The position numbers and the translations under genes were made by a program. DNA of 13,149 bases from Syntrophaceae bacterium (GTDB lineage: Bacteria > Desulfobacterota > Syntrophia > Syntrophales > Fen-1087): the NCBI GenBank assembly GCA_003161855.1, contig PMNM01000185.1, forward strand, positions 832 through 13,980. The letters are read 5' to 3'. This document shows positions 3,527-13,149 of the stretch, in pieces; the first letter of the stretch is position 1, and each line of letters starts with the position of its first letter. The notes beneath the pieces are model-generated. The model was given only the letters and a program-made list of their open reading frames with translations, did no database searches and was not told the origin of the DNA.

Positions 3527-4768
3527 ATGTCGGTTGTCATTCCCCTGAGAGTGCTGAGGCCACAGAAACAGTTTGCTAAAGCGGTCGCTTCTCCTCCCTA
3601 TGATGTGATCAGTCTGGAAGAAGCTGCGAAAATGGCTTCCGGCAATCCACTCAGTTTTTTACATGTCGAGAAATCAGAGATCGATCTGTTGCCGTTACCT
3701 GTCGATATGACAGATGATCGGGTTTATCGATTAGCCAGAGAAAATCTAGGCAGGCTGATATCGGATGGCATTTTGATTCAGGATGGGAAACCCTGTTTTT
3801 ATATTTACCGTCAGCAGATGGTTGATCACAGGCAATATGGCATCGTCGCCGGAATCAGCGTTGCCGAATATGAATCCGGCCGGATCAAGAAACACGAATT
3901 GACCAGACCCGACAAAGAGATGGAACGGACCAGGCATGTGGAGACCGCCGGCGCACAAACGAGTCCGGTCTTTGTGACCTACAGAGCGCAGAATGCGATA
4001 GATGAGATTGTTGCAAAGGTGGTCAAGGAGACGCCGGAATATGACTTTACCACGGATGATGGAATCGGTCATACGTTCTGGATCCTCAGTCATGAAACCG
4101 AAATCGCTGCATTAAGAAATGCCTTTATGCATGTGGATACGTTGTATATTGCCGACGGTCACCACCGGGCTGCCGCCGCCGCCGCTGTAAGTCGGATGAA
4201 AAGAGGGCAAGGCAGGGCAAACCGGGGCGATGAATCCTGTCACTATATCATGGCCGTCCTGTTTCCCCATAACCAGCTCCGGATCATGGATTATAACCGG
4301 GTGGTTTGTGATCTCCATGGTTTAAGTCAGGCCGCATTCCTTGCCAAAATTGAGGCAAAGTTTTTGATCCAGCCGGATTTTAAGGAGAAGAAACCCGTTC
4401 AGTTGCATGAATTCGGTATGTACCTGAACGGTCAATGGTTTAAACTCACACCAAAAAGAAAAACCTCTCATCGAGATCCTGTCAGGAACCTGGATGTCAC
4501 CATCCTGCAAGATGATCTCCTGAGACCTGTGCTTGGCATTCAGGATCCGAGGACTGATCATCGGATTGATTTTGTCGGAGGTATCCGCGGGATGGCGGAA
4601 CTGGAAAAGCTTGTAGACTCTGGATCCTTTCAGGTGGCCTTTTCACTGTATCCGACCACCGTGGATCAGATGATGAATGTTGCCGATACCGGCAGCGTCA
4701 TGCCACCCAAATCCACCTGGTTTGAACCCAAACTGCGCAGCGGCTTATTTGTGCATCGCTTATGTTAG
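3527..4768 (+). CDS. DUF1015 family protein
   Basis: This 413-residue protein has the hallmarks of the DUF1015 family. These are an N-terminal 'PLRVLRP' and 'SPPYDVIS' segment (22-29), a central 'KKHELTRPDKEMERTRH' block (121-137) followed by 'SPVFVTY', and the strongly conserved 'YIADGHHRAAAA' motif (207-218). The length is typical. As I recall, DUF1015 genes often neighbour serA/serC in anaerobes, which hints at serine or phosphoserine metabolism, but no such gene is present here. The biochemical function is not assigned. The ATG is well placed after GAGGAAAA. The gene stands alone between a divergent hydrolase and a 157-bp gap before trmN6. The family call is firm, the function open. Confidence 0.9.
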   Translation: MSVVIPLRVLRPQKQFAKAVASPPYDVISLEEAAKMASGNPLSFLHVEKSEIDLLPLPVDMTDDRVYRLARENLGRLISDGILIQDGKPCFYIYRQQMVDHRQYGIVAGISVAEYESGRIKKHELTRPDKEMERTRHVETAGAQTSPVFVTYRAQNAIDEIVAKVVKETPEYDFTTDDGIGHTFWILSHETEIAALRNAFMHVDTLYIADGHHRAAAAAAVSRMKRGQGRANRGDESCHYIMAVLFPHNQLRIMDYNRVVCDLHGLSQAAFLAKIEAKFLIQPDFKEKKPVQLHEFGMYLNGQWFKLTPKRKTSHRDPVRNLDVTILQDDLLRPVLGIQDPRTDHRIDFVGGIRGMAELEKLVDSGSFQVAFSLYPTTVDQMMNVADTGSVMPPKSTWFEPKLRSGLFVHRLC

Positions 4769-4835
4769 TATCTTTTAAATCATTTCAATATGTTACAGAA
4801 TTATTATCCCGGGGATTTAATCTCTTTTTATGGCG

Positions 4836-4878
4836 AAATCATTTTGGATTCGTGCCTGCTGAAAATGATTTTCATTTT
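4836..4878 (+). repeat. Overlapping AT-rich inverted repeats upstream of trmN6
   Basis: A perfect 10-bp inverted repeat, AAATCATTTT (4836-4845) and AAAATGATTT (4862-4871), has a 16-nt loop. The right arm can instead pair with TCATTTT at 4872-4878 across a 3-nt loop, so two mutually exclusive hairpins are possible. It lies in the 157-bp gap between the DUF1015 gene and trmN6. It may be a weak terminator (T-rich stretch after the second arm), an operator or chance in AT-rich DNA. Confidence 0.4.
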
Positions 4879-4925
4879 TGCCGGGCTCGCATTGACCGTT
4901 AACGGGGATTCCTGTTCATGCAATC

Positions 4926-5702
4926 ATGAAAAGACCTGGGGAGACCGTAGATCAGATTCTCGGTGGAAAATTAAAAATCATACAAAAGGAAAAAGGATAC
5001 CGTTTTTCCATCGATGCCCTGCTTCTTGCCCATTTTGTCTGGCTGAAGAAGAGAGATCATCTTCTTGAGCTGGGGACCGGCAGTGGTGTAATATCCTTAA
5101 TTCTGGCGCGGCGATGGTGTTGCGGCAGGGTGGTCGGCGCAGAGATTCAGGAGGATCTTTATGAAATGGCCCTCCGCAATGTTGAATTGAACAGTCTGAC
5201 GGATCAGGTCAGCATGATTCCTTGTGACGTCAGGAGAATTGAGACCTCCCTTAAGGCACAGTCGTTCGATACCGTTGTTTTTAATCCACCTTATCGAAAA
5301 ATGAATTCCGGAAGAATGAATCCGGATGATCAGAGAGCCATGGCACGGCATGAGATCAAAGGAACACTTGACGATTTTCTGAAGGCTGCCGCATATGTTC
5401 TGAAAGAATCAGGACGTGTTTTTATCATTTATCCTGCCGCCCACATGGTCGAACTGTTTGATCGCATGAGAACGTTCCATTTGGAACCGAAAAGGGTAAA
5501 AATCGTTTATTCTCATGATGATTCAGAGGGAGAATTCATTCTTGCCGAAGGAAGGAAAGGAGGGCGGGAAGCACTAAAGGTTCTACCACCGCTTTTTATT
5601 TATGAACGAACGGGAGAATATTCCCCAGTCATGATGGGTATATTCAGCGATCTTGCTGACCGGGAGCGTATCCCGCAAGCCCCACCGGACAGGCGGCGTT
5701 GA
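4926..5702 (+). CDS. trmN6: TrmN6-like tRNA1(Val) A37-N6-methyltransferase
   Basis: This is a SAM-dependent N6-adenine methyltransferase of the YfiC/TrmN6 type, 258 residues. Its N-terminal 'GYRFSIDALLLAHF' (24-37) is typical of this family. Motif I 'ELGTGSG' (48-54) binds SAM, and 'GAEIQ' (71-75) supplies the acidic residue for the ribose. The catalytic 'NPPY' (120-123) is the N6-adenine methylase signature. In E. coli this enzyme methylates A37 of tRNA1(Val). An in-frame stop at 4893-4895 limits the start. The ATG at 4926 has only a distant GGGGA about 15 nt upstream, so initiation may be inefficient. A four-codon mini-ORF (ATG at 4918) overlaps the start out of frame and ends on TGA sharing bases with the ATG. 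The last residues (after about 245) are Pro/Arg-rich and probably lineage-specific. It converges with the dciA-like gene. Confidence 0.87.
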   Translation: MKRPGETVDQILGGKLKIIQKEKGYRFSIDALLLAHFVWLKKRDHLLELGTGSGVISLILARRWCCGRVVGAEIQEDLYEMALRNVELNSLTDQVSMIPCDVRRIETSLKAQSFDTVVFNPPYRKMNSGRMNPDDQRAMARHEIKGTLDDFLKAAAYVLKESGRVFIIYPAAHMVELFDRMRTFHLEPKRVKIVYSHDDSEGEFILAEGRKGGREALKVLPPLFIYERTGEYSPVMMGIFSDLADRERIPQAPPDRRR

Positions 5703-5727
5703 AGTGCGCCATTCACTAAATATTTTC

Positions 5728-6255
5728 CTATCGGGAAGCACTGCCCGACGGGTGGCGGACTTCACTTTCGATGAGGCGACGCCGGGTCATTTCCTTGGTC
5801 ATGACCCTTCTCAGGATATCTCTCAATTCCTCATCGGTTACGGAAGCGACGCTTTTTTCGATGATTTTTTTATCTCGCGATTTTAATACAGAACTTTCTC
5901 GATCAGGGGAGGGTGGGTTGTCTTTTTTCATGACCGAAGCAGCCATTTCATCAATGGAGAAGAAGATATTCTTGATCGGATTATTTTTATATTCCCGGTT
6001 GATTTTCTCAAGGATATCCTGTTTAAGAAAGTGGAGTTGCTGCATCCAGACGGAATTTGCGACCTTGACAAAGAGGATATCTCTTTTTATCGCGTCGGGT
6101 CTCGTATAAGCAGAAATTTTCGGACCGACGACTTCAAGCCAGATCTTTTGTAGCCGCTGATCTTCCAGCCTTAAGGGAATGTGGTGTCTCTTTAAGGCCT
6201 TTTGGAGAATATCACCGATTTTCTGCAGTTTAGCTGGCTGAACTCTTTTACGCAT
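5728..6255 (-). CDS. DUF721/DciA-like protein (putative replicative helicase-loading factor)
   Basis: This 175-residue basic protein has an N-terminal DUF721/DciA domain (about 8-95). Visible family features are 'LQKIWLEVVGPKISAYTRP' with Trp39 and Gly44, then 'DILFVKVANSVWMQQLHFLK' (59-78, Trp70) and 'ILEKIN'. DciA is the ancestral bacterial partner of the DnaB helicase. In these species it acts instead of the DnaC/DnaI loaders. The C-terminal half (100-175) is charged, probably partly disordered, and ends in a short helix 'DEELRDILRRVM'. That part is not conserved in my memory of the family. The upstream region has only a weak A/G-rich ribosome site. A 7-bp inverted repeat lies 21-42 bp before the start codon. 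The family assignment is good; the role in loading is inferred from characterised homologues. Confidence 0.82.
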   Translation of the reverse strand: MRKRVQPAKLQKIGDILQKALKRHHIPLRLEDQRLQKIWLEVVGPKISAYTRPDAIKRDILFVKVANSVWMQQLHFLKQDILEKINREYKNNPIKNIFFSIDEMAASVMKKDNPPSPDRESSVLKSRDKKIIEKSVASVTDEELRDILRRVMTKEMTRRRLIESEVRHPSGSASR

Positions 6256-6275
6256 GTTCTTTTTTTACATAGATT

Positions 6276-6297
6276 GATGTTGAGGTCAAGCAACATC
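6276..6297 (-). repeat. Perfect 7-bp inverted repeat in the dciA leader
   Basis: GATGTTG (6276-6282) and CAACATC (6291-6297) are exact reverse complements with an 8-nt loop. The repeat is 21 bp from the dciA start codon, inside the 126-bp divergent gap with the moaE-like gene. It could be a leader hairpin or an operator. A second, wider inverted pair, TACATAGAT (6266-6274) and ATCTATGTA (6359-6367), brackets the gap close to both start codons. Confidence 0.4.
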
Positions 6298-6381
6298 TCT
6301 GCCTGGAGACAGGTCGTAAGTCGTGACCGATCAAGTGCCAATTGCCAGGCCGGTTGTGATCTATGTACACCGGAGTGACCG

Positions 6382-6732
6382 ATGAGCCTATTGAAAATGA
6401 TTAGAAAAATCAAAGCGCATCCGGATTATCATCGTGTGGGGATGATCCTTTGTCATAATGGGGTCGTACGGGCCACATCGAGGGATGGCAAAGCGGTAAC
6501 CGAATTGACGGTCAGGGTCAACAGGGAACGTTTGCAGGATATCATCGCTGAAATAAAAAGACGTCCCGGAATTATTGAAATCTTCGTCGAAATCAAGGAA
6601 GGAAAGCTCAGGATCGGGGAGGATGTCATGTATGTCGTCGTCGCCGGTGACTTCCGGGAGAACGTCTTTTCTGCCCTCATGGATACGGTCAACCTGATCA
6701 AAAAGGATGTAACGCAAAAAATTGAAATATGA
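6382..6732 (+). CDS. Short, divergent MoaE-like protein (molybdopterin synthase large subunit family)
   Basis: This 116-residue protein resembles MoaE, the catalytic subunit of molybdopterin synthase, which adds sulfur to cPMP. Matching parts are 'NGVVRATSRDGKAVTEL' (26-42, like the G-x-VR loop of MoaE), then 'EIKEGKLRIGEDVMYVVVAG' split across 70-89, then 'DFRENVFSALMDTVNLIKKD' (90-109). It is shorter than the usual 140-150 residues, having lost part of the middle. The His-Arg pair in the canonical 'AHR' is Phe-Arg here (91-92). Lys107/108 and Lys113 could stand for the two catalytic lysines, but their spacing is one residue shorter. The start has GGAGTGACCG just upstream. No MoaD or other Mo-cofactor gene is nearby. 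It may be an active short form or a relative with another role. Confidence 0.72.
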   Translation: MSLLKMIRKIKAHPDYHRVGMILCHNGVVRATSRDGKAVTELTVRVNRERLQDIIAEIKRRPGIIEIFVEIKEGKLRIGEDVMYVVVAGDFRENVFSALMDTVNLIKKDVTQKIEI

Positions 6733-6733
6733 C

Positions 6734-6756
6734 AGCCCAGCGGGGCTAAGTCTTTT
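6734..6756 (+). terminator. Candidate terminator after the moaE-like gene
   Basis: Two bases after the stop codon, AGCCC (6734-6738) and GGGCT (6743-6747) form a 5-bp GC-rich stem with a 4-nt loop, followed by AAGTCTTTT. The stem and T-tract are short, so the strength is uncertain. The position directly after a coding region and before a 279-bp gap supports the call. Confidence 0.45.
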
Positions 6757-7011
6757 ACCTGATTTCAGAATCATCCTTTGCAGAATTTTTTATTTATTTA
6801 GGATATAAGAAAATGGTCCAGATGATTATCAAGAAAATTCTATCCGGCATGAAGACGATCCGGACATTGAATCTACATCCCTGATAACGGGACCTCATCG
6901 GTTTTTTCATCATGGTGCGGGCAGGATGGGATGTTCCCTCATATTCTTTTGAGCAGCGGGAGATCGAACCGTCGCGCAATCAGAAAGTCACTGTTCTTGT
7001 GAGGATTTCCT
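6757..7011 (+). other. Non-coding stretch before the lipid cluster
   Basis: This stretch of about 255 bp holds no convincing gene. It contains a TATAAG -10-like box at 6804-6809 in AT-rich sequence, without a clear -35. An ATG-started 23-codon ORF (6813-6884, Lys/Ile-rich) follows an AGGATATAAGAAA stretch. The last part contains the ribosome site of the next gene. The region probably carries the promoter and leader of the membrane-protein gene at 7012. Confidence 0.35.
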
Positions 7012-7446
7012 TTGCGTATTTTTCAATGGATAGCCAAGTGTTTTGCTGATCAACCTTTTGTCCGCAGCGCCAGGGAAGATCGTGAATATCTGAGCGCTTT
7101 CAAAAAGAGGCCGACGGCAACGGTTATTTTCGGTATATTTCTGATTTTGTTCAGTTATGTGATAGGCTGGCCCGTTGTGGGTGCGTTGGGGTTGCTATCG
7201 TTTTATACCGGAAAACCACTGATTCTGATGATCGGCGGACCGCTTACCTACGGTCTTTCTCATCTGGTTTTTTTAGCGGGTCTTTATTTTGCCGGTAAAC
7301 CTTATGCAATCGCTCTGGCAAAGTGGGCCATCCGGGTGGCTTTTGAAAAGATGCTTCCTGCGCAGGCAGAATCAACATCCCGGGATTATCAGAAACATGT
7401 CTCCCCGACGTTGCCCTTGAGGCGGGATGAACGAAATGATTTGTGA
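7012..7446 (+). CDS. Small membrane protein of unknown function at the head of the lipid cluster
   Basis: I do not recognise this 144-residue protein. It has a basic/aromatic N-terminus ('MRIFQWIAKCF') and a charged stretch 'SAREDREYLSAFKKRP' (19-34). Hydrophobic segments lie at about 36-64, long enough for one or two passes, and at about 79-95. They are joined by a Gly/Pro loop 'GKPLILMIGGP', and a polar C-terminal tail (115-144) follows. The start is TTG at 7012; GAGGA at 7001-7005 gives ideal spacing, and no in-frame ATG is nearby. It lies 120 bp before the ACP gene on the same strand. It could anchor or scaffold a lipid-synthesis complex, but that is a guess from context. A candidate promoter between it and the ACP gene means it may not be in the same operon. 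Confidence 0.75.
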   Translation: MRIFQWIAKCFADQPFVRSAREDREYLSAFKKRPTATVIFGIFLILFSYVIGWPVVGALGLLSFYTGKPLILMIGGPLTYGLSHLVFLAGLYFAGKPYAIALAKWAIRVAFEKMLPAQAESTSRDYQKHVSPTLPLRRDERNDL

Positions 7447-7465
7447 TCTGAACCGTCCGTTAAAA

Positions 7466-7494
7466 TTGACATCATCGAAAATGCATGTTAGCCT
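7466..7494 (+). promoter_or_regulatory. Weak candidate promoter before the ACP/KS-CLF genes
   Basis: A perfect -35 TTGACA (7466-7471) is followed 17 bp later by TAGCCT (7489-7494), a poor -10 matching three of six bases. A promoter with a weak -10 often needs an activator, and a perfect palindrome (7511-7538) lies just downstream. This is therefore a plausible regulated start for the ACP, KS-CLF and oxidoreductase genes. The evidence is limited to the motif. Confidence 0.35.
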
Positions 7495-7510
7495 TAACCT
7501 TAGTTACATG

Positions 7511-7538
7511 GAGAACTTTTCAGCGCATTAAAGTTCTC
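7511..7538 (+). repeat. Perfect 9-bp inverted repeat upstream of the ACP gene
   Basis: GAGAACTTT (7511-7519) and AAAGTTCTC (7530-7538) are exact reverse complements around a 10-nt centre. The element lies 17 bp downstream of the candidate -10 box and 28 bp before the ACP start codon. It may be a repressor operator just after the transcription start, or a hairpin in the leader RNA. No T-tract follows, so a terminator is unlikely. Confidence 0.55.
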
Positions 7539-7566
7539 AGACAATAAAACATATGGGGAAATCGAG

Positions 7567-7833
7567 ATGGAGAAACTGATCCAAGAACTTAAAACCAAGA
7601 TTATTGAAACCCTTTCTCTTCTGGACATGACTCCGGAGGACATTGACACAGATGCTCAACTGGTTGGTGGTCAGACAGGACTGGATTCCATTGATGTTTT
7701 GGAGCTGGTCATGATGGTTGAAAAGGATTATGGCGTAAAAATTGATAATAAAGAGCTCGGCATGAAAGTGTTCGCCTCGGTCAGGGCATTAGCCCGGTAT
7801 ATCCATGAAAAACGAACTGATACCGTTCATTGA
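7567..7833 (+). CDS. Acyl carrier protein (first ACP of the cluster)
   Basis: This 88-residue phosphopantetheine-attachment protein carries the growing acyl chain as a thioester. The signature 'GLDSIDVLEL' places the attachment Ser at residue 41. It is preceded by the usual first helix and an acidic loop ('PEDIDTDAQL') and followed by recognition helix II ('VLELVMMVEKDYGV'). The ATG follows GGGGAAAT at normal spacing. Its stop codon overlaps the ATG of the ketosynthase gene (TGATG), so translation is probably coupled and the two proteins likely work as a pair. It differs clearly from the second ACP at 12884, so it is unlikely to be a simple duplicate. The housekeeping AcpP is normally next to fabF/fabD, so this is a dedicated ACP. 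Confidence 0.93.
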   Translation: MEKLIQELKTKIIETLSLLDMTPEDIDTDAQLVGGQTGLDSIDVLELVMMVEKDYGVKIDNKELGMKVFASVRALARYIHEKRTDTVH

Positions 7834-10004
7834 TGAATGTACGCGTTTTTATTATCGGCATGGGTATTATCAGTCCCTTAGGTGCAGGATATTCTGAGAC
7901 ATTCGCTGCACTGAAAAAAGGTCGGACGGGTATCACACCCTTAAGTCTTTTCCCAACATCCCATCAAGAACCTTTGCCTGTCGGTGAAATCGGAGATGTG
8001 CCTCATCATGAGCATCTGCCGCGAACCCATGTCTTGGCAAAGATTGCTGCCCAGGAAGCCATGCGCAGGACGAAGGAGAAGCCTGATGCGATTGTCATGG
8101 GTGTCATAACCGGTGGGATGCCTGTCACGGAAGAGCTGCTGATGAGAGGGATCTATGATCCGCAGCGATACAAAAATCACTCAACGGGTTCTGTTACTGA
8201 ATATGTTGCCCGTGAGGTCGGCTGTACGGGTCCTGTTCTGACGGTATCGACGGCCTGTTCTTCCGGGACGGTTGCCATGAAAATCGCTTTGGAAATGCTA
8301 CGCAGCGGACAGTCAAAATGTGTTCTGGCCGGGGGAGTAGATGCCCTTTGCCGCCTGACTTATTATGGCTTTCATGCCTTACAACTGGTTGATCCGGCCG
8401 GTGCCCGTCCTCTTGATCAGAACCGGCGGGGGATGACGGTTGCGGAAGGCGCGGCGATGTTCCTTCTGGTTGCCGGGGAGAAGCCTCCAGATCATGCCAT
8501 GGCTGAACTCCTTGGCGTTGGTTTGACCTGTGATGCTTATCATCCCGCCGCCCCTCAGCCGGATGGATTGGGCGCATGCCTCGCCATGCAGAATGCCCTG
8601 TCCGATGCCGGCGTCGCCCTCTCCGACATTGATTATATAAATCTTCATGGAACAGGGACCATAGACAATGACTTGGCGGAAGCGAAAGCGCTCCATGCAT
8701 TATTCGGTGTGAATCTGCCGTTCCTGTCTTCGACAAAAGGTGCTTTCGGTCATGCCCTTGCCGCTGCGGGCGCCATCGGTTCCGCTATCTCTGTAATGAG
8801 CATTGCTCATCACCTCATTCCGGCCAACAGTGGGTGTGAAGTCCCTGATCCGGAATTGAATTTGCATCCCGTGATGGTACCTCTTAAAGCGGAGGTGAAG
8901 ACCGTTCTATCCAATGCTTTCGGATTTGGGGGAAATAACGCTGCATTGGTCATGGGCGATCCCGAAAAATCATCGAGCCGACGCAACGTCCACCGGGAGG
9001 TCACTCCTTTTCGTATATTGGGAAGTGCCTGCTTGACGGGTGCGGGGGATACCGAGACAACGCTGGCATGCTTGTACGAAAATAAACAAATCAAGGGCCT
9101 GATGAATCCTGATGCCATGACGATGCATCTTCCCCCGAGGGTTGTCCGCCGTCTGAAGCGCCTGTCCAGGATGGTCTTGTCTCTTGCCCTTTCGGCCCAC
9201 AAAAACTCGGGCACATCCGATTCACCGGCTTCCGTCTTCTTCGGTACCGGCTGGGGGCCGCTTTCCGAAGTGTATGATTTTCTAAAAAAACTGTTCGAAT
9301 CGGATGAGCAGTTTTCCAGTCCCACAGATTTTGTCGGTTCTGTGCATAATGCTGCCGCCAGTCAGGTTGCCATCTGGTTCAAGGCCAAAGGGCCCAATGT
9401 CACCATGACCGGTGAAGATTATTCATTTGAACAGGCCCTGATGAGTGCAAGCCTGTTGGCACGAGATCCAGATGAGTGCTGTCTGTTGATCGCTGCGGAT
9501 GAATATCACACGGTATTATCGGGATTATTTGATCGATCCGTTGCTTTGAGTGATCTGCCGGCCGATGGAGGTGCCGCATTTTATCTGAAACCAGGCGGGT
9601 CTGACCATGGATTAAGATTTTCCCCCGTTTTTCTGGAATACACCCACAACAACCCGCACGCTGTTCGCTCCATGATGAACAGCTTGGGGGGAAAAGTCAG
9701 AATCGGGGAGCGGTTTGGGGCTGTTTTTGCCGGAATTCCGGAGGCTCATCGGGAAAAAGGCCATCAGCAGCTTGATGATTTCTTGTCCGTAACGGGATTC
9801 CGGGGACCCGTCATTGATTACAGGCGATGGACAGGTGAATTTGCTGCAGCTTCCGCCGTTGCTGCCTTTTTAGCCGCACATTTTGTGAAGGAAGGAGACC
9901 TCCCGTCGCTTCACGGCCATTCCTCGATAAGCCCCCTCGATGGAAAAGGCATCCTTTTGATGGGTCTGGGTGAGTTCGTAACTGCCGTGGAGGTTTTGCC
10001 GTGA
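7833..10004 (+). CDS. Tandem ketosynthase / chain-length-factor-like fusion protein
   Basis: This 723-residue protein has two thiolase-fold halves. Residues 3-376 form a complete beta-ketoacyl-ACP synthase with Cys142 ('TACSSG'), His272 ('HGTGT'), Lys302 and His307 ('TKGAFGH') and a C-terminal 'NAFGFGGNNA'. Residues about 393-723 match the ketosynthase-like N-terminal family ('SVHNAAASQVAIWFKAKGPN', 503-522). Aligning 'GP' of both halves puts Asp529 at the Cys position. 'TGEFAAAS' stands where the first half has 'GHALAAAG', and no HGTGT is seen, so the second half should be catalytically dead, like a chain-length factor. KS and CLF are separate chains in classic type II systems and adjacent domains in PfaC of PUFA synthases. 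I chose ATG 7833 because it forms TGATG with the ACP stop; TTG at 7830 is an alternative. It should make long or polyene chains by decarboxylative condensation. Confidence 0.9.
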   Translation: MNVRVFIIGMGIISPLGAGYSETFAALKKGRTGITPLSLFPTSHQEPLPVGEIGDVPHHEHLPRTHVLAKIAAQEAMRRTKEKPDAIVMGVITGGMPVTEELLMRGIYDPQRYKNHSTGSVTEYVAREVGCTGPVLTVSTACSSGTVAMKIALEMLRSGQSKCVLAGGVDALCRLTYYGFHALQLVDPAGARPLDQNRRGMTVAEGAAMFLLVAGEKPPDHAMAELLGVGLTCDAYHPAAPQPDGLGACLAMQNALSDAGVALSDIDYINLHGTGTIDNDLAEAKALHALFGVNLPFLSSTKGAFGHALAAAGAIGSAISVMSIAHHLIPANSGCEVPDPELNLHPVMVPLKAEVKTVLSNAFGFGGNNAALVMGDPEKSSSRRNVHREVTPFRILGSACLTGAGDTETTLACLYENKQIKGLMNPDAMTMHLPPRVVRRLKRLSRMVLSLALSAHKNSGTSDSPASVFFGTGWGPLSEVYDFLKKLFESDEQFSSPTDFVGSVHNAAASQVAIWFKAKGPNVTMTGEDYSFEQALMSASLLARDPDECCLLIAADEYHTVLSGLFDRSVALSDLPADGGAAFYLKPGGSDHGLRFSPVFLEYTHNNPHAVRSMMNSLGGKVRIGERFGAVFAGIPEAHREKGHQQLDDFLSVTGFRGPVIDYRRWTGEFAAASAVAAFLAAHFVKEGDLPSLHGHSSISPLDGKGILLMGLGEFVTAVEVLP

Positions 10005-11476
10005 TCTCACACAAAGACAATCCGACAGATGTTTTGGTCATTGGTTCCGGTGTCGGGGGGTTGACGGCAGCGATCATCCTTCTAAAAACCGGCTGCCGTG
10101 TAACCGTCGTTGAGAAAAATCCCCTGCCCGGTGGGTTGATGCGCAGTTATCAACGGGATGGGATCGACTGCCCAGTCGGCGTTCACTACTTGGGAGCACT
10201 GGCAAAAGGGCAGCCTCTCCGGCGGATGTTTGATTATCTGGGGGTTACCTCACGGATTCCCGTAGAACGAATGGGGTCAAACGGTGTCATTGATCGTTAT
10301 ATTTTTAATGATTTTATCTTTGATTTGCCTGAGGGAATCAGTGCCTTTGCGGCGAATTTGCTTCGTGCATTTCCTGAGGAGAGGCTTCAGATCGATGTCA
10401 TCGTCAAGAATTTAAAGTATACATCGGCCAAAATGGATGACTTTGACATTCTCTTTGCACAGAATCACGATTTTGTGTCTTTGGTGGAATATATCGAATC
10501 CCTAGGCAGCCTGATGACAAACTTGCATTGTTCTGCCGGTCTCCGCAGTGTCTTGGGTATGACGTCTACCTGGATTGGCATTCCGTTGGATGAATGTCCT
10601 ATTTACTATCATCATATGGCGCTGGCTTCCTATCTGTCGTCTTCTTGGCGATTGACCTGCAGCGGAGCGGATATGGCGGATGCCTTTGCAAGCCGGGTGA
10701 AAAACCTGGGTGGAACCCTTATGGTCGGCGACCCTGTCGAAAGGGTCCTGATCGATAAAAGGGTCGTTGAAGGTGTTGCTTTGAAATCAGGACGGGTGCT
10801 GAAAGCAAAGAGGGTTGTTGGCGCCATTCATCCTAAAATTCTGCTTGGCATGCTGCCTGAAGGTGCCGTAAAGCCTGCCTACATCAAGCGTATCTCTAAT
10901 TTGGAAGATACGCCGGGTAGTTTTAGTGCTCATTTCGCTGTCGATGCCGAACCCCATCAGGAGTTATCATACAATGTCTACCGGGTTTTCACAGACGGGA
11001 GGGGTACGATATCCGATGTTGTTTTTTATCAATTACGGAAGAGCAACCTGCCGGGTATTAATCTTCTTTCCATCATAACACCCAGCCCTTCCGCGGAATG
11101 GAACCGATGGGAACACACCCGGTCCAATCGGCGCGGCGATGACTATAGGGTTGCAAAACAACAAAAAGCAGACCGTTTGATCCGGGAAGCGGCAGAGATA
11201 GTTGGACCTTTTAAGGGATTAAAGATGCTGGATGCATCCACTCATCTGACTCTCCGGGACTGGGTGAACACTCCCGGAGGATCCGCATATGGTGTGCTTC
11301 GATCAACGAAACAGCTGACCAGTGCTGCCATGCTGAATCGTACATCCGTTGAAGGATTATTTCTTGCTGGCCAAAGCGTTCTGGCTCCAGGAATTTTTGG
11401 GACGGTCCTGGGATCATTTTACACCGTCAAACAGATGATGGGTCATAAAAAATTTCTGGAGGAAGTTGTTCTATAA
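10001..11476 (+). CDS. FAD-dependent oxidoreductase, phytoene-desaturase/RetSat-like
   Basis: This 491-residue flavoprotein has an N-terminal Rossmann motif 'VLVIGSGVGGLTAA' (G15, G17, G20) with Glu38 at the end of strand 2, followed by 'LPGGLMRSY'. The segment 'GIDCPVGVHYLGAL' (54-67) resembles the retinol saturase (all-trans-retinol 13,14-reductase) and CrtI-type carotenoid enzymes. The C-terminal 'GLFLAGQSVLAPGIFGTVLGS' region is the second FAD-binding signature. Such enzymes desaturate, saturate or isomerise conjugated polyene chains. The GTG start at 10001 overlaps the ketosynthase stop by 4 bp and has an excellent GGAGG 7 nt upstream. That position points to an acyl-chain or polyene substrate made by the ACP and KS-CLF. 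The true reaction is not decidable from sequence; carotenoid synthesis is unlikely because no crtB-like gene is here. Confidence 0.88.
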   Translation: MISHKDNPTDVLVIGSGVGGLTAAIILLKTGCRVTVVEKNPLPGGLMRSYQRDGIDCPVGVHYLGALAKGQPLRRMFDYLGVTSRIPVERMGSNGVIDRYIFNDFIFDLPEGISAFAANLLRAFPEERLQIDVIVKNLKYTSAKMDDFDILFAQNHDFVSLVEYIESLGSLMTNLHCSAGLRSVLGMTSTWIGIPLDECPIYYHHMALASYLSSSWRLTCSGADMADAFASRVKNLGGTLMVGDPVERVLIDKRVVEGVALKSGRVLKAKRVVGAIHPKILLGMLPEGAVKPAYIKRISNLEDTPGSFSAHFAVDAEPHQELSYNVYRVFTDGRGTISDVVFYQLRKSNLPGINLLSIITPSPSAEWNRWEHTRSNRRGDDYRVAKQQKADRLIREAAEIVGPFKGLKMLDASTHLTLRDWVNTPGGSAYGVLRSTKQLTSAAMLNRTSVEGLFLAGQSVLAPGIFGTVLGSFYTVKQMMGHKKFLEEVVL

Positions 11477-11509
11477 ATTAGGAGCCCCGCTGCTGAGGAA
11501 ACTGGTTTC

Positions 11510-12322
11510 GTGATGCGTGATCATGCCGGCATGAGTGCGCTGTCACCTGCTCATTTCGCAGGTTTTACAGCCATTCTATTGTCTGCCATCCTATTCATGT
11601 TCCAGCCTTTGTGGGCTGCCATCCCTCTGACATTCTATATTCTGGGATGTGCGATCGCCTCCTTTTCCCCGCAATCCAGATTTTTCCTGTCTGTGGTCAG
11701 TCGAGGTTCTACAGGCAGACGTGTCATCGCTCTGACTTTTGATGACGGGCCGGATCCGCTGACGACACCCTTTCTCCTGAAGGTTTTGTCAAAATACAAG
11801 ATGAGGGCCACTTTTTTTGTTTCCGGGCAAAGTGCATCCAATTATCCGGACTTAATAAGAGAAATACTCTCTGATGGACATTTTATCGGCAATCATTCTT
11901 ATAGCCATGACCCTTTTCTGATGTTATATCCCTATCATAAACTTTATCAGGAAATTGACGCTGCTCAAGACATTTTAAAAAAATTTGGCATCCTGCCCCT
12001 TGCTTTCAGACCTCCTGTCGGTCTTACGAACCCGAAATTACGTCCGATTCTCACAACTCTCGGAATGTTTTGTGTGACTTTCAGTTGCCGGGCTTTTGAC
12101 CGGGGAAACCGGCATATCGGTGGGCTGGCGAGGAAAATCCTGGGAAAAGTGAAATCCGATGATATTGTTTTACTCCATGATGTCCGTCCGGACGGGGAAA
12201 ACGGTGTTCAACAGTGGCTGCATGAGATTGAGTTGATCCTGTCCGGTTTTTTGACAATGGGGTTCAATGTGATTCCCCTTGATGAACTGATTGGCAAGTC
12301 GGTTATGAAAACCATGAATTAA
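11510..12322 (+). CDS. Membrane-anchored NodB-type polysaccharide deacetylase
   Basis: This is a 270-residue carbohydrate esterase family 4-like protein. Two hydrophobic segments (about 13-31 and 35-53) anchor it, and the NodB domain follows (about 70-260). Catalytic motifs are intact. 'TFDDGPDP' (76-83) has the catalytic-base and metal aspartates, 'GNHSYSHD' (127-134) has metal-binding His129 and His133, 'RPPVG' (167-171) follows, and 'LLHD' (221-224) has His223. Such enzymes remove N-acetyl groups from glycans, or act on amides or esters of sugars. The GTG at 11510 has AGGA 10 nt upstream; ATG 11513 is an alternative. It is 33 bp downstream of the oxidoreductase, and a promoter for the next genes follows. 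Deacetylation of an amino-sugar head group attached to the cluster's lipid is a possible role. The enzyme family is firm, the substrate unknown. Confidence 0.9.
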   Translation: MMRDHAGMSALSPAHFAGFTAILLSAILFMFQPLWAAIPLTFYILGCAIASFSPQSRFFLSVVSRGSTGRRVIALTFDDGPDPLTTPFLLKVLSKYKMRATFFVSGQSASNYPDLIREILSDGHFIGNHSYSHDPFLMLYPYHKLYQEIDAAQDILKKFGILPLAFRPPVGLTNPKLRPILTTLGMFCVTFSCRAFDRGNRHIGGLARKILGKVKSDDIVLLHDVRPDGENGVQQWLHEIELILSGFLTMGFNVIPLDELIGKSVMKTMN

Positions 12323-12389
12323 GGCCGGGCAAACTTCTGTTCAAGTGTACGGGGCAATGATCGTATCCTAAAGCACTAGAAAAAAGTTT

Positions 12390-12418
12390 TTGATTGTCGT
12401 GTAAATCAGTGGTATAAG
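12390..12418 (+). promoter_or_regulatory. Sigma-70-like promoter for the dehydratase and second ACP
   Basis: TTGATT (12390-12395) and TATAAG (12413-12418) are 17 bp apart. The -10 matches five of six bases and the -35 four of six. An A/T tract (AAAAAAGTTTTT) just upstream of the -35 could serve as an UP element. Transcription would start near 12425, about 43 bp before the dehydratase ATG. The gap between the deacetylase and the dehydratase is only 145 bp, so this may be an internal promoter of the cluster. Confidence 0.55.
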
Positions 12419-12442
12419 AATTAATTCAATGTGAACTGATTT
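12403..12442 (+). promoter_or_regulatory. Nested 40-bp dyad over the promoter -10 and start site (candidate operator)
   Basis: AAATCAGT (12403-12410) and ACTGATTT (12435-12442) are exact reverse complements. Between them is the perfect palindrome GAATTAATTC (12418-12427). Both symmetries share the same centre, 12422.5, with 7-bp gaps on each side. The left arm lies in the spacer between -35 and -10, the inner palindrome at the end of the -10 and the start site, and the right arm in the leader. This geometry is what a dimeric repressor site would show. Confidence 0.5.
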
Positions 12443-12467
12443 GCGGTGAAGACAGAATAGAAACAAG

Positions 12468-12845
12468 ATGTTTGAGCATTGGCACGACCTGGCCATTTTG
12501 AGTCATTCCTCCCCGGATAGTCTTTTTGCCGAGATTCGGGTTGCCTTGGATTCTCCATGGTTTAACGGTCATTTTCCGGGGGAACCGATTTTGCCCGGTG
12601 TTGCCGTTCTTACCATGGTCGTGGAAATGGTTCGACATGCCGAACAGAAAAAAAATAGAAAAGTGAGAATATCCGGCATCAAGCGAGTAAGATTCAAACA
12701 GCCAGTCAAACCGAATGATCAATTATCCATAGAGGTGTCCTGTGACGATTCGGGACCTGTGTCATCCTATCTTTTTAAGGCAATGGTCAGAAATGAAATC
12801 GCCTGCACCGGTGTGGTTTTGGTTGAACGGATTCCTGCCGGATAA
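12468..12845 (+). CDS. FabZ/FabA-type hot-dog 3-hydroxyacyl-ACP dehydratase-like protein
   Basis: This 125-residue single hot-dog protein has the dehydratase signature 'WFNGHFPGEPILPGVAVL' (31-48) with catalytic His35. It probably removes water from 3-hydroxyacyl-ACP to give the enoyl-ACP needed for a polyene or unsaturated chain. In FabZ the Glu and in FabA the Asp of the active site lie 14 residues after the His; that position is Thr49 here, and the nearest acid is Glu53. Either another acid serves, as in some divergent APE-type dehydratases, or catalysis differs. The start ATG has only a weak purine-rich stretch upstream ('GAATAGAAACAAG'). A promoter and dyad lie directly upstream and the second ACP directly downstream, so these two are a transcription unit. 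The hot-dog family is clear; activity is inferred. Confidence 0.85.
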   Translation: MFEHWHDLAILSHSSPDSLFAEIRVALDSPWFNGHFPGEPILPGVAVLTMVVEMVRHAEQKKNRKVRISGIKRVRFKQPVKPNDQLSIEVSCDDSGPVSSYLFKAMVRNEIACTGVVLVERIPAG

Positions 12846-12883
12846 GTGTGTGTTCATCAATATGTCAGGAGGTCAATAATAGA

Positions 12884-13144
12884 ATGTCTGTAAAAATGGA
12901 TCAAGGGGCGTTGATACGCCGAATTGCAGAGATTATTATCTCTGAACTCAGACTGGAGGAGGTTACGGTCGCAACCTTCGATCCGGAACTCGATCTGGTG
13001 GATGAGTTGGGTATTGATAGTATGGATTTGGCTACGATCGCCCTGGTTCTTCAGGATGAGTATAACATTACAATCGATGAGGATGATTATCCCAAGCTCA
13101 GGAATGTTCGGCTCATTGCCGAATATATTATCAGCAAGAAATAA
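12884..13144 (+). CDS. Acyl carrier protein (second ACP of the cluster)
   Basis: This 86-residue ACP has 'ELGIDSMDLATI' (41-52) with the phosphopantetheine Ser at residue 46. An acidic first loop ('FDPELDLVDE') precedes it, and helix II ('DLATIALVLQDEYNI') and the 'IDEDDYPKLRNVRLIAEYI' region follow. I chose ATG 12884 because AGGAGG (12868-12873) lies 10 nt upstream; the longer frame from GTG 12848 would put that site inside the coding region. It sits 38 bp after the dehydratase. Its sequence differs strongly from the first ACP (different residues around the Ser and the following helix). This suggests separate partners or a starter versus extender role. The next ATG (13145) begins right after its stop codon, so another gene may follow at the window edge. 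Confidence 0.93.
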   Translation: MSVKMDQGALIRRIAEIIISELRLEEVTVATFDPELDLVDELGIDSMDLATIALVLQDEYNITIDEDDYPKLRNVRLIAEYIISKK

Positions 13145-13149
13145 ATGTG

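Follow-up and report, generated by a model that had tools for sequence, protein, structure and literature searches.

A roughly 19 kb type II polyketide-like gene cluster in an uncultured Syntrophales bacterium, probably for an aryl-polyene-type, flexirubin-related outer-membrane lipid

What kind of acyl product is made by a locus in which a fused ketosynthase and chain-length factor (KS-CLF), acyl carrier proteins (ACPs), a CrtI/RetSat-like flavoenzyme, a NodB deacetylase and a hot-dog dehydratase lie side by side in an uncultured Syntrophales bacterium? The window analyzed here is the whole stretch of 13,149 nucleotides from Syntrophaceae bacterium (assembly GCA_003161855.1, contig PMNM01000185.1), comprising bases 832–13980 of a 29,107-base contig in an assembly that is 84% complete; positions below are window coordinates unless a locus code is given. 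Taken with the downstream genes and with related loci, seven genes of the window open a type II polyketide/fatty-acid-like cluster of ~19 kb, which probably directs the synthesis of an aryl-polyene-type, flexirubin-related outer-membrane lipid. What is new here is the occurrence of flexirubin-like genes together with radical S-adenosylmethionine (SAM) and CrtI-like enzymes in anaerobes. Among the papers listed in searches of the open-licence literature, none dealt with such a cluster in Syntrophales, which is weak evidence of absence.

A sequence-only reading of this DNA had described seven same-strand genes with short gaps or overlaps and had assigned domains to them, all of which was confirmed from coordinates, Pfam matches and motifs. 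The seven open reading frames (ORFs) occupy positions 7012–13144, all on the + strand:

7012..7446, +, o144, a small protein of 144 amino acids (aa) with two hydrophobic segments and no known family; begins with TTG, start uncertain
7567..7833, +, ACP1, acyl carrier protein of the PRK09184 subfamily (73.1 bits, cut-off 70)
7830..10004, +, KS-CLF fusion, 724 aa, from Pfam ketosynthase domains and catalytic residues
10001..11476, +, flavin adenine dinucleotide (FAD)-dependent CrtI/RetSat-like oxidoreductase, 491 aa, from Pfam, profile match and tree
11510..12322, +, NodB/CE4 polysaccharide deacetylase with an N-terminal hydrophobic segment, from Pfam and motifs
12468..12845, +, FabZ/ApeI-like hot-dog 3-hydroxyacyl-ACP dehydratase, from Pfam
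12848..13144, +, ACP2, from Pfam; last of the seven, before radical SAM 1

The spacing between consecutive genes is +120, -4, -4, +33, +145 and +2 bases, and the window sequence has an N count of zero. The first of them, o144, has no Pfam match, its hydrophobic segments come from a crude scan, and it is probably the first gene of the cluster.

Both ACPs possess the D-S site and match PP-binding (39.5 and 37.9 bits, cut-off 20.8). The fusion matches ketoacyl-synt and Ketoacyl-synt_C (123.4 and 98.7 bits), with Ketoacyl-synt_2 at residues 430–559 (56.8 bits); since the codon following its TTG also reads as M, translation may in fact begin there. Its KS half has the triad Cys143/His273/His308, while in the CLF half Asp replaces Cys. 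In an alignment of nine fusions, C-H-H was present in all nine KS halves and Cys was absent from all nine CLF halves, being replaced by D in six and by N, Q and S in one each, which suggests that the KS half is the active ketosynthase and its partner half is chain-length-factor-like. At least 1490 relatives of the fusion were found at E ≤ 1e-80 among the 8000 best-sharing candidates scored, and since the 120 relatives listed are all 695–767 aa long, the fusion is not a frame artefact. The FAD protein matches Amino_oxidase (66.7 bits) and NAD_binding_8 (57.5 bits), and a phytoene dehydrogenase was its best match in a profile search of the PDB (48.1 bits). The deacetylase matches Polysacc_deac_1 (106.3 bits) and holds the motifs TFDDG, HSYSH, RPPVG and LHD, and the hot-dog protein matches FabA-like (47.2 bits) and ApeI-like (33.7 bits, cut-off 28.5) families in Pfam.

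The cluster runs for ~12.7 kb past position 13144, giving a length from o144 to DarH of ~18.8 kb. The downstream genes are listed in L040 coordinates (window-equivalent = L040 + 12168):

L040:993-2036 (window-equivalent ~13161 onward), radical SAM 1; start unsure, with an assembly gap just before
L040:2033-2707, LP224, a 224-aa protein of no family whose N-terminus is hydrophobic, placed between radical SAM 1 and radical SAM 2
L040:2892-3890, radical SAM 2
L040, next in order, KS2, KS3, a YbgC/FadM-like 4HBT thioesterase and a PS-DH protein
L040, then a B12-binding radical SAM gene (assembly gap inside), ACP3 and KS4 (with a gap)
L040, then PlsC, PlsY (with a gap), a DarG-family protein and DarH
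L040, after DarH, RidA (other strand) and ThiE

KS2, KS3 and KS4 all carry the C-H-H triad in alignment. In NCBIfam, the DarG-family protein reaches 167.9 bits against a cut-off of 70, while DarH reaches 474.4 bits against an equivalog model with cut-off 300 and is by its name there a BtrH-related acyltransferase. The downstream genes are not those of ordinary type II fatty acid synthesis (FASII), and the gene content supports the proposal, made from the window alone, of a dedicated acyl or polyene-type biosynthesis cluster. Homologues of LP224 were also seen in relatives, lying between both radical SAM genes in L213 and elsewhere in L058 (G012) and L165 (G054).

Several functions that the sequence-only reading had named as worth seeking downstream were traced. 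Acyltransferases (PlsC and PlsY) are inside the cluster, whereas the ketoreductase, acyl ligase and MMPL exporter are not in the host cluster but are found on two other host contigs, C18 and C126, and near the cluster in relatives. When the ORFs of relatives' loci that were unmatched by host genes were grouped and assigned to families, they included MMPL, AMP-ligase, FabG/FlxB-like ketoreductase, ApeP-like dehydratase, LolA, lipid-A-type acyltransferase, GT2 and aromatic ammonia-lyase, as well as a DarB (551.5 bits, cut-off 550). In three relatives (G054:C53, G012:C7 and G107:C2) the cluster lies together with ammonia-lyase, AMP-ligase, ketoreductase, ApeP-like dehydratase and LolA within ~40 kb, plus GT2 and MMPL in G107:C2 and G012:C7 and plus DarB in G054:C53. 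Of the 19 same-order genomes searched, the host among them, 16 have the ammonia-lyase; it was also found in 1 of 6 further genomes from the phylum and in 2 of 4 that had been taken via outside loci. In the host, C18 carries GT2, a DarB-like gene, two B12-radical SAM genes, LolA, a ketoreductase (L248:7494-8222, outside the ~19 kb cluster), an ABC transporter and an ApeP-like dehydratase region (43% over 330 bases, the family being assigned on a relative's protein), and C126 (L167) carries an AMP-ligase, part of an MMPL gene and a second DarG/DarH. Also on C126 are a second KS (Cys present, 41% identical to the KS half of the fusion) and a CLF-like partner. In L220:16140-19193 (U1), an MMPL exporter has a C-terminal methyltransferase domain at about residues 830–995.

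Most genes of an aryl-polyene-type pathway can thus be located in the host: a predicted active KS with a CLF-type partner, ApeI- and ApeP-like dehydratases, dedicated ACPs, a thioesterase, a ketoreductase (C18), PlsC/PlsY and DarG/DarH (cluster), GT2 and LolA (C18) and a partial MMPL gene (C126). The chemical steps, the starter, the carrier and the product of the pathway would then be as follows. An activated starter, probably an aryl acid, would be loaded onto an ACP and elongated with malonyl units by the KS-CLF fusion and its partner ketosynthases. With a ketoreductase supplied from outside the cluster, the FabZ/ApeI-like, PS-DH and ApeP-like dehydratases would leave double bonds in the chain, the 4HBT thioesterase may serve in proofreading or release, and the CrtI/RetSat-like flavoenzyme and the radical SAM enzymes may carry out oxygen-free tailoring. 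PlsC/PlsY and the DarH acyltransferase would pass the chain to a lipid or sugar carrier de-N-acetylated by NodB, and export would be by MMPL and LolA-type proteins. A de-N-acetylated sugar carrier is plausible, with carrier and acceptor both putative.

To see how far these genes keep together, loci were collected by two anchors. Among 60 genomes (the host and 59 relatives), full-length FAD orthologues were found in the host and 16 relatives, and one more (G021) was in two fragments; 16 FAD-anchored loci were used, excluding the G021 fragment locus L057, and several of the contigs are short. A search of 395 genomes of the phylum (host included) at E ≤ 1e-60 found radical SAM 2 in 28, and 20 of its 29 places were fetched; in 17 other loci it is 73–83% identical to that of the host, and one named homologue comes from the metagenome-assembled genome Smithella sp. 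SDB. The counts that follow refer to loci that hold both genes. In the radical SAM 2-anchored set, ACP2 and radical SAM 1 are adjacent in 18/18 loci, KS3 and the thioesterase in 19/19, the thioesterase and PS-DH in 18/19, and FabZ and ACP2 in 16/18, while radical SAM 1 with radical SAM 2, radical SAM 2 with KS2, and KS2 with KS3 each stand at 17/19. FabZ directly upstream of ACP2, and ACP2 directly upstream of radical SAM 1, also hold in 8/8 FAD-anchored loci each. That genes of this cluster are linked in homologous neighborhoods, as the window had led one to expect, therefore stands for the core pairs. Insertions or losses occur in L206, L211, L213 and L217.

At the upstream end, ACP1 lies directly upstream of the fusion in 7/7 loci of either set, an o144 homologue directly upstream of ACP1 in 6/6 FAD-anchored and 4/7 radical SAM 2-anchored loci, and the fusion precedes the FAD gene in 8/8 FAD-anchored loci. 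In L045, L046 and L047, ACP1 is followed directly by the FAD gene, and there is no KS-CLF fusion on these three fetched stretches. FAD, ACP3, KS4 and PlsC form a separate module in five FAD-anchored loci, and the FAD gene is present in just 2 of the 20 radical SAM 2-anchored stretches, so that it is outside the core in most. The FAD and NodB genes are tied more loosely than the core, which counts against fixed roles for these two. DarG and DarH are in none of the 36 stretches of the two sets, and in G057 they lie further along the same contig.

The linkage of the cluster is not general synteny, because the host's flanking genes are almost never beside it elsewhere: PhaC, PhaE, DUF1015, RidA and ThiE were found in none of the 36 loci, and TrmN, DciA and MoaE-like genes in one. 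Neighbor order that is kept in other families where the host's flanking genes are not is beyond chance. The cluster is conserved yet patchily distributed in anaerobes of the phylum.

Published aryl-polyene-type systems, which the sequence-only reading was right to choose as an area of comparison, show both likeness and difference. According to the available parts of their description (PMC3992019), the flexirubin loci flxA–flxY and the dar genes of Chitinophaga pinensis and Flavobacterium johnsoniae have in common with this cluster and its accessory genes several KSs, a ketoreductase, dehydratases and thioesterases, a polysaccharide deacetylase, an acyltransferase, LolA, a glycosyltransferase and an exporter; the flexirubin ammonia-lyase and ligase are matched here in relatives, and the ligase in the host too. 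By NCBIfam names, the DarB, DarG and DarH families are common to both, and the Azoarcus account (PMC3949708) gives its BtrH-like protein the name darE. The cluster here differs from the flexirubin loci in the fusion of KS with CLF, the CrtI/RetSat-like flavoenzyme, the pair of radical SAM enzymes and the B12-radical SAM enzymes; in addition, a DarA-position gene was not detected in the host, and flexirubin-specific NCBIfam models are missed. The apeA-R genes of E. coli CFT073 include at least two ACPs, as here (PMC8253772, in the part available), and share with arcuflavin the KS plus CLF, ApeI- and ApeP-like dehydratases, ketoreductase, thioesterase, lysophospholipid acyltransferase and RND and Lol-like export that are also met here (PMC8253772; PMC3949708, likewise in part). 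They differ in that KS and CLF are fused here, the host's ketoreductase and export genes are on other contigs, and the radical SAM enzymes and flavoenzyme are additional. The NodB deacetylase had been thought unusual for the described classes, which is not so: parts of the published accounts place a polysaccharide deacetylase in flexirubin flxP–flxU (PMC3992019), in arcuflavin as arcN (Azoarcus; PMC3949708) and in Kuenenia as Kuste3351 (PMC2649909). An amino-sugar head was accordingly rejected as a novelty, since published clusters already hold the same type of deacetylase, and such a head may be a feature of the present product. The aryl-polyene lipid of X. doucetiae reportedly has a glucosamine-type part. 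Anaerobes are also known to make celluxanthenes, aryl polyenes that are products of type I iterative polyketide synthases (PMC12144888, in the part available), and these were set aside as the work of different enzymes.

A number of observations weigh against an aryl-polyene-type product. The ~19 kb cluster itself has neither a ketoreductase nor a starter ligase, families of these kinds being absent from the matches of its genes, and C18 and C126 are connected to it through homology alone. The aromatic ammonia-lyase had no match in the host, whose assembly is incomplete, and chorismatase-type starter enzymes were not searched. Several models are missed: the best NCBIfam match of the fusion is PRK09185 at 300.1 bits, under its cut-off of 407, the host DarG falls under the flexirubin-specific model (145.9 against 170), and in relatives the ketoreductase scores 285.5 against 340 for FlxB and the ammonia-lyase 303 against 700 for FlxA. 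Nothing corresponding to the flavoenzyme or to the radical SAM pair is seen in the aryl-polyene clusters compared, as far as their available published descriptions go. Within the synteny, the thioesterase and PS-DH are non-adjacent in 4/4 FAD-anchored loci with both, NodB is directly before FabZ in only 2/9 radical SAM 2-anchored loci compared with 8/8 FAD-anchored loci, and L203, one of the 20 radical SAM 2-anchored loci, is without most of the core.

That the locus is an ordinary or duplicated fatty-acid synthesis operon is very improbable: KS, ACP, FabZ, PlsC and PlsY do belong to FASII-type families, but the KS-CLF fusion, DarH, the radical SAM pair and the flavoenzyme are foreign to ordinary FASII, the cluster's genes include no member of an enoyl reductase family, and the host has a separate FabF-like KS on C79 adjoining a malonyl-transacylase-like protein (the latter our own assignment). 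A stronger competitor, which we nevertheless consider unlikely, is a ladderane or anaerobic polyunsaturated fatty acid or hydrocarbon cluster of the Kuenenia/Desulfotalea kind, in which a fatty acid would undergo CrtI-like polydesaturation and radical SAM modification. The available parts of the Kuenenia descriptions (Kuste3335–3352, 3603–3608 and 2802–2805; PMC2649909; PMC4790861) give the same row of KS, CLF-like KS (KS*) and phytoene-desaturase-like FAD protein, along with FabZ, ACPs, paired radical SAM enzymes and the NodB-like Kuste3351, and similar clusters were reported in Desulfotalea, Geobacter and Pelobacter (Rattray 2009, as available in part), that of Desulfotalea being likened here by published description, not by sequence (PMC2649909; PMC4790861). 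In a genome scan with a Kuenenia relative (80 loci), L061–L094 and L096 match at 69–93% and all genus names among them are anammox genera; these loci have FabZ, KS, KS* and FAD in a row where the contig allows. At the three catalytic columns of the alignment, Kuenenia hertensis KS* carries Val, Asn and Glu, residues listed likewise for Kuste3606 by Rattray et al. (PMC2649909, in the part available). In the PDB, the KS half is matched best by 9s5h_B, whose nearest named relatives are anammox ketosynthases. The B12-radical SAM protein of relatives belongs to TIGR04072, 'rSAM_ladder_B12' (400.6 bits, cut-off 360), which is over its cut-off in 21 of 29 genomes searched, with its gene directly upstream of NodB in 8/8 FAD-anchored and 5/6 radical SAM 2-anchored loci with both; the three anammox genomes searched for it have full-length matches of 319–324 bits, below the cut-off, and this family is the nearest link between the cluster and ladderane loci. 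The host, on the other hand, has no TIGR04072 match at E ≤ 1e-20. Identity to the anammox proteins is 30–35% for KS, 26–29% for KS* and 21–25% for FAD, the anammox KS and FAD being no closer to those of the cluster than are those of Acidobacteria, Omnitrophota or Nitrospirae, and a BLAST comparison of the CLF half with anammox KS* gave no match at E ≤ 1e-8. In the FAD tree (midpoint root, with a long-branch warning) the 17 rows of the cluster family fall into a single clade (100/100 support), apart from the anammox rows. Radical SAM 2 scores 676 bits in Desulfobacteraceae SURF_4, but of seven anammox-type genomes six have partial matches of at most 65 bits and one has none; radical SAM 1 had no match in the fetched anammox KS loci, the genomes not having been searched with it alone. 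KS and KS* are separate genes in anammox bacteria and fused here, and DarG/DarH in the cluster with ammonia-lyase and DarB nearby in relatives point to aryl polyenes instead. On these comparisons, ladderane loci share organization and theme with the cluster but not orthologous enzymes, so that the likeness first noticed holds for gene order and fails for orthology, and membership of a ladderane cluster was rejected. Even true ladderane homology would not settle function, because the available part of the Kuenenia enzyme work reports that lycopene formation by CrtI-like enzymes was not found and that gene sets expressed in E. coli gave no new fatty acids, with many proteins insoluble (PMC4790861).

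Within the preferred reading of an aryl-polyene-type lipid, a flexirubin-like hybrid is possible, though the balance is against it: the aryl polyene would be esterified to a Dar-made dialkylresorcinol. DarG/DarH in the cluster, their second copy on C126 and the DarB-like gene on C18 are consistent with this, as are five relatives (G056, G057, G008, G026 and G040) in which a DarA-position gene is directly upstream of DarB. DarG and DarH follow DarB in the first four of these, the G040 contig ending in DarB, and in G057 about 3 kb separate the end of this operon from PlsY of the cluster. The DarA-position protein matched no family and would be DarA by its position; it has no match in the host at E ≤ 1e-10. 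The DarB family, moreover, is in just 13 of 25 genomes searched, ten of them above the cut-off, and the host gene, which is of a second type, scores 392 bits (cut-off 450) and has an assembly gap within it. In this second setting, DarB adjoins a B12-binding radical SAM protein and the DarA-position gene is lacking; it was seen in the host (L248:727-3110, C18) and in G016, G362, G324 and G155 (L226, L227, L228 and L230), whose B12-radical SAM proteins are 52–56% identical to that of the host. G054 and G002 have the DarB most like the host's, with the B12 partner undetected and the G002 contig ending at DarB.

Still more tentatively, and at low confidence, the highly conserved radical SAM pair, the flavoenzyme and the B12-radical SAM enzymes may give a chain or ring outside the known aryl polyenes, through a polyene-lipid pathway that needs no oxygen, in syntrophs and other anaerobes of the phylum. 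On this reading, a B12-radical SAM protein at the place expected for DarA would suggest a radical route to the head group. Such a pathway, if true, would link aryl-polyene, dialkylresorcinol and ladderane-type biosynthesis. Aryl polyenes and flexirubins have mostly been studied in oxygen-exposed organisms and are credited with protection from oxidation. A conserved type II version in anaerobes, if true, raises the question of what role such lipids have without oxygen, and radical SAM enzymes, as a theme common with ladderane-type loci, offer a comparison for the unsolved ladderane pathway. Overall, the interpretation first drawn from the window is partly supported.

An Rfam search of the window gave zero matches, and scans of positions 6300–13149 found 9 promoter-like sites (7.9 expected) and 12 terminator-like sites (7.5 expected), neither of which is usable. 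Positions 3527–6732 hold genes for a DUF1015 protein, a TrmN-like methyltransferase, DciA (opposite strand) and a MoaE-domain protein, and the one locus elsewhere with the TrmN-like, DciA and MoaE-domain genes at the cluster edge is L041 of the same-family genome G002. Class III-type polyhydroxyalkanoate synthase genes, with PhaC-like (PhaC_N, 38.8 bits) and PhaE-like (PHA_synth_III_E, 79 bits) products, lie at 579–2804 on the opposite (-) strand and apparently have no relation to the cluster.

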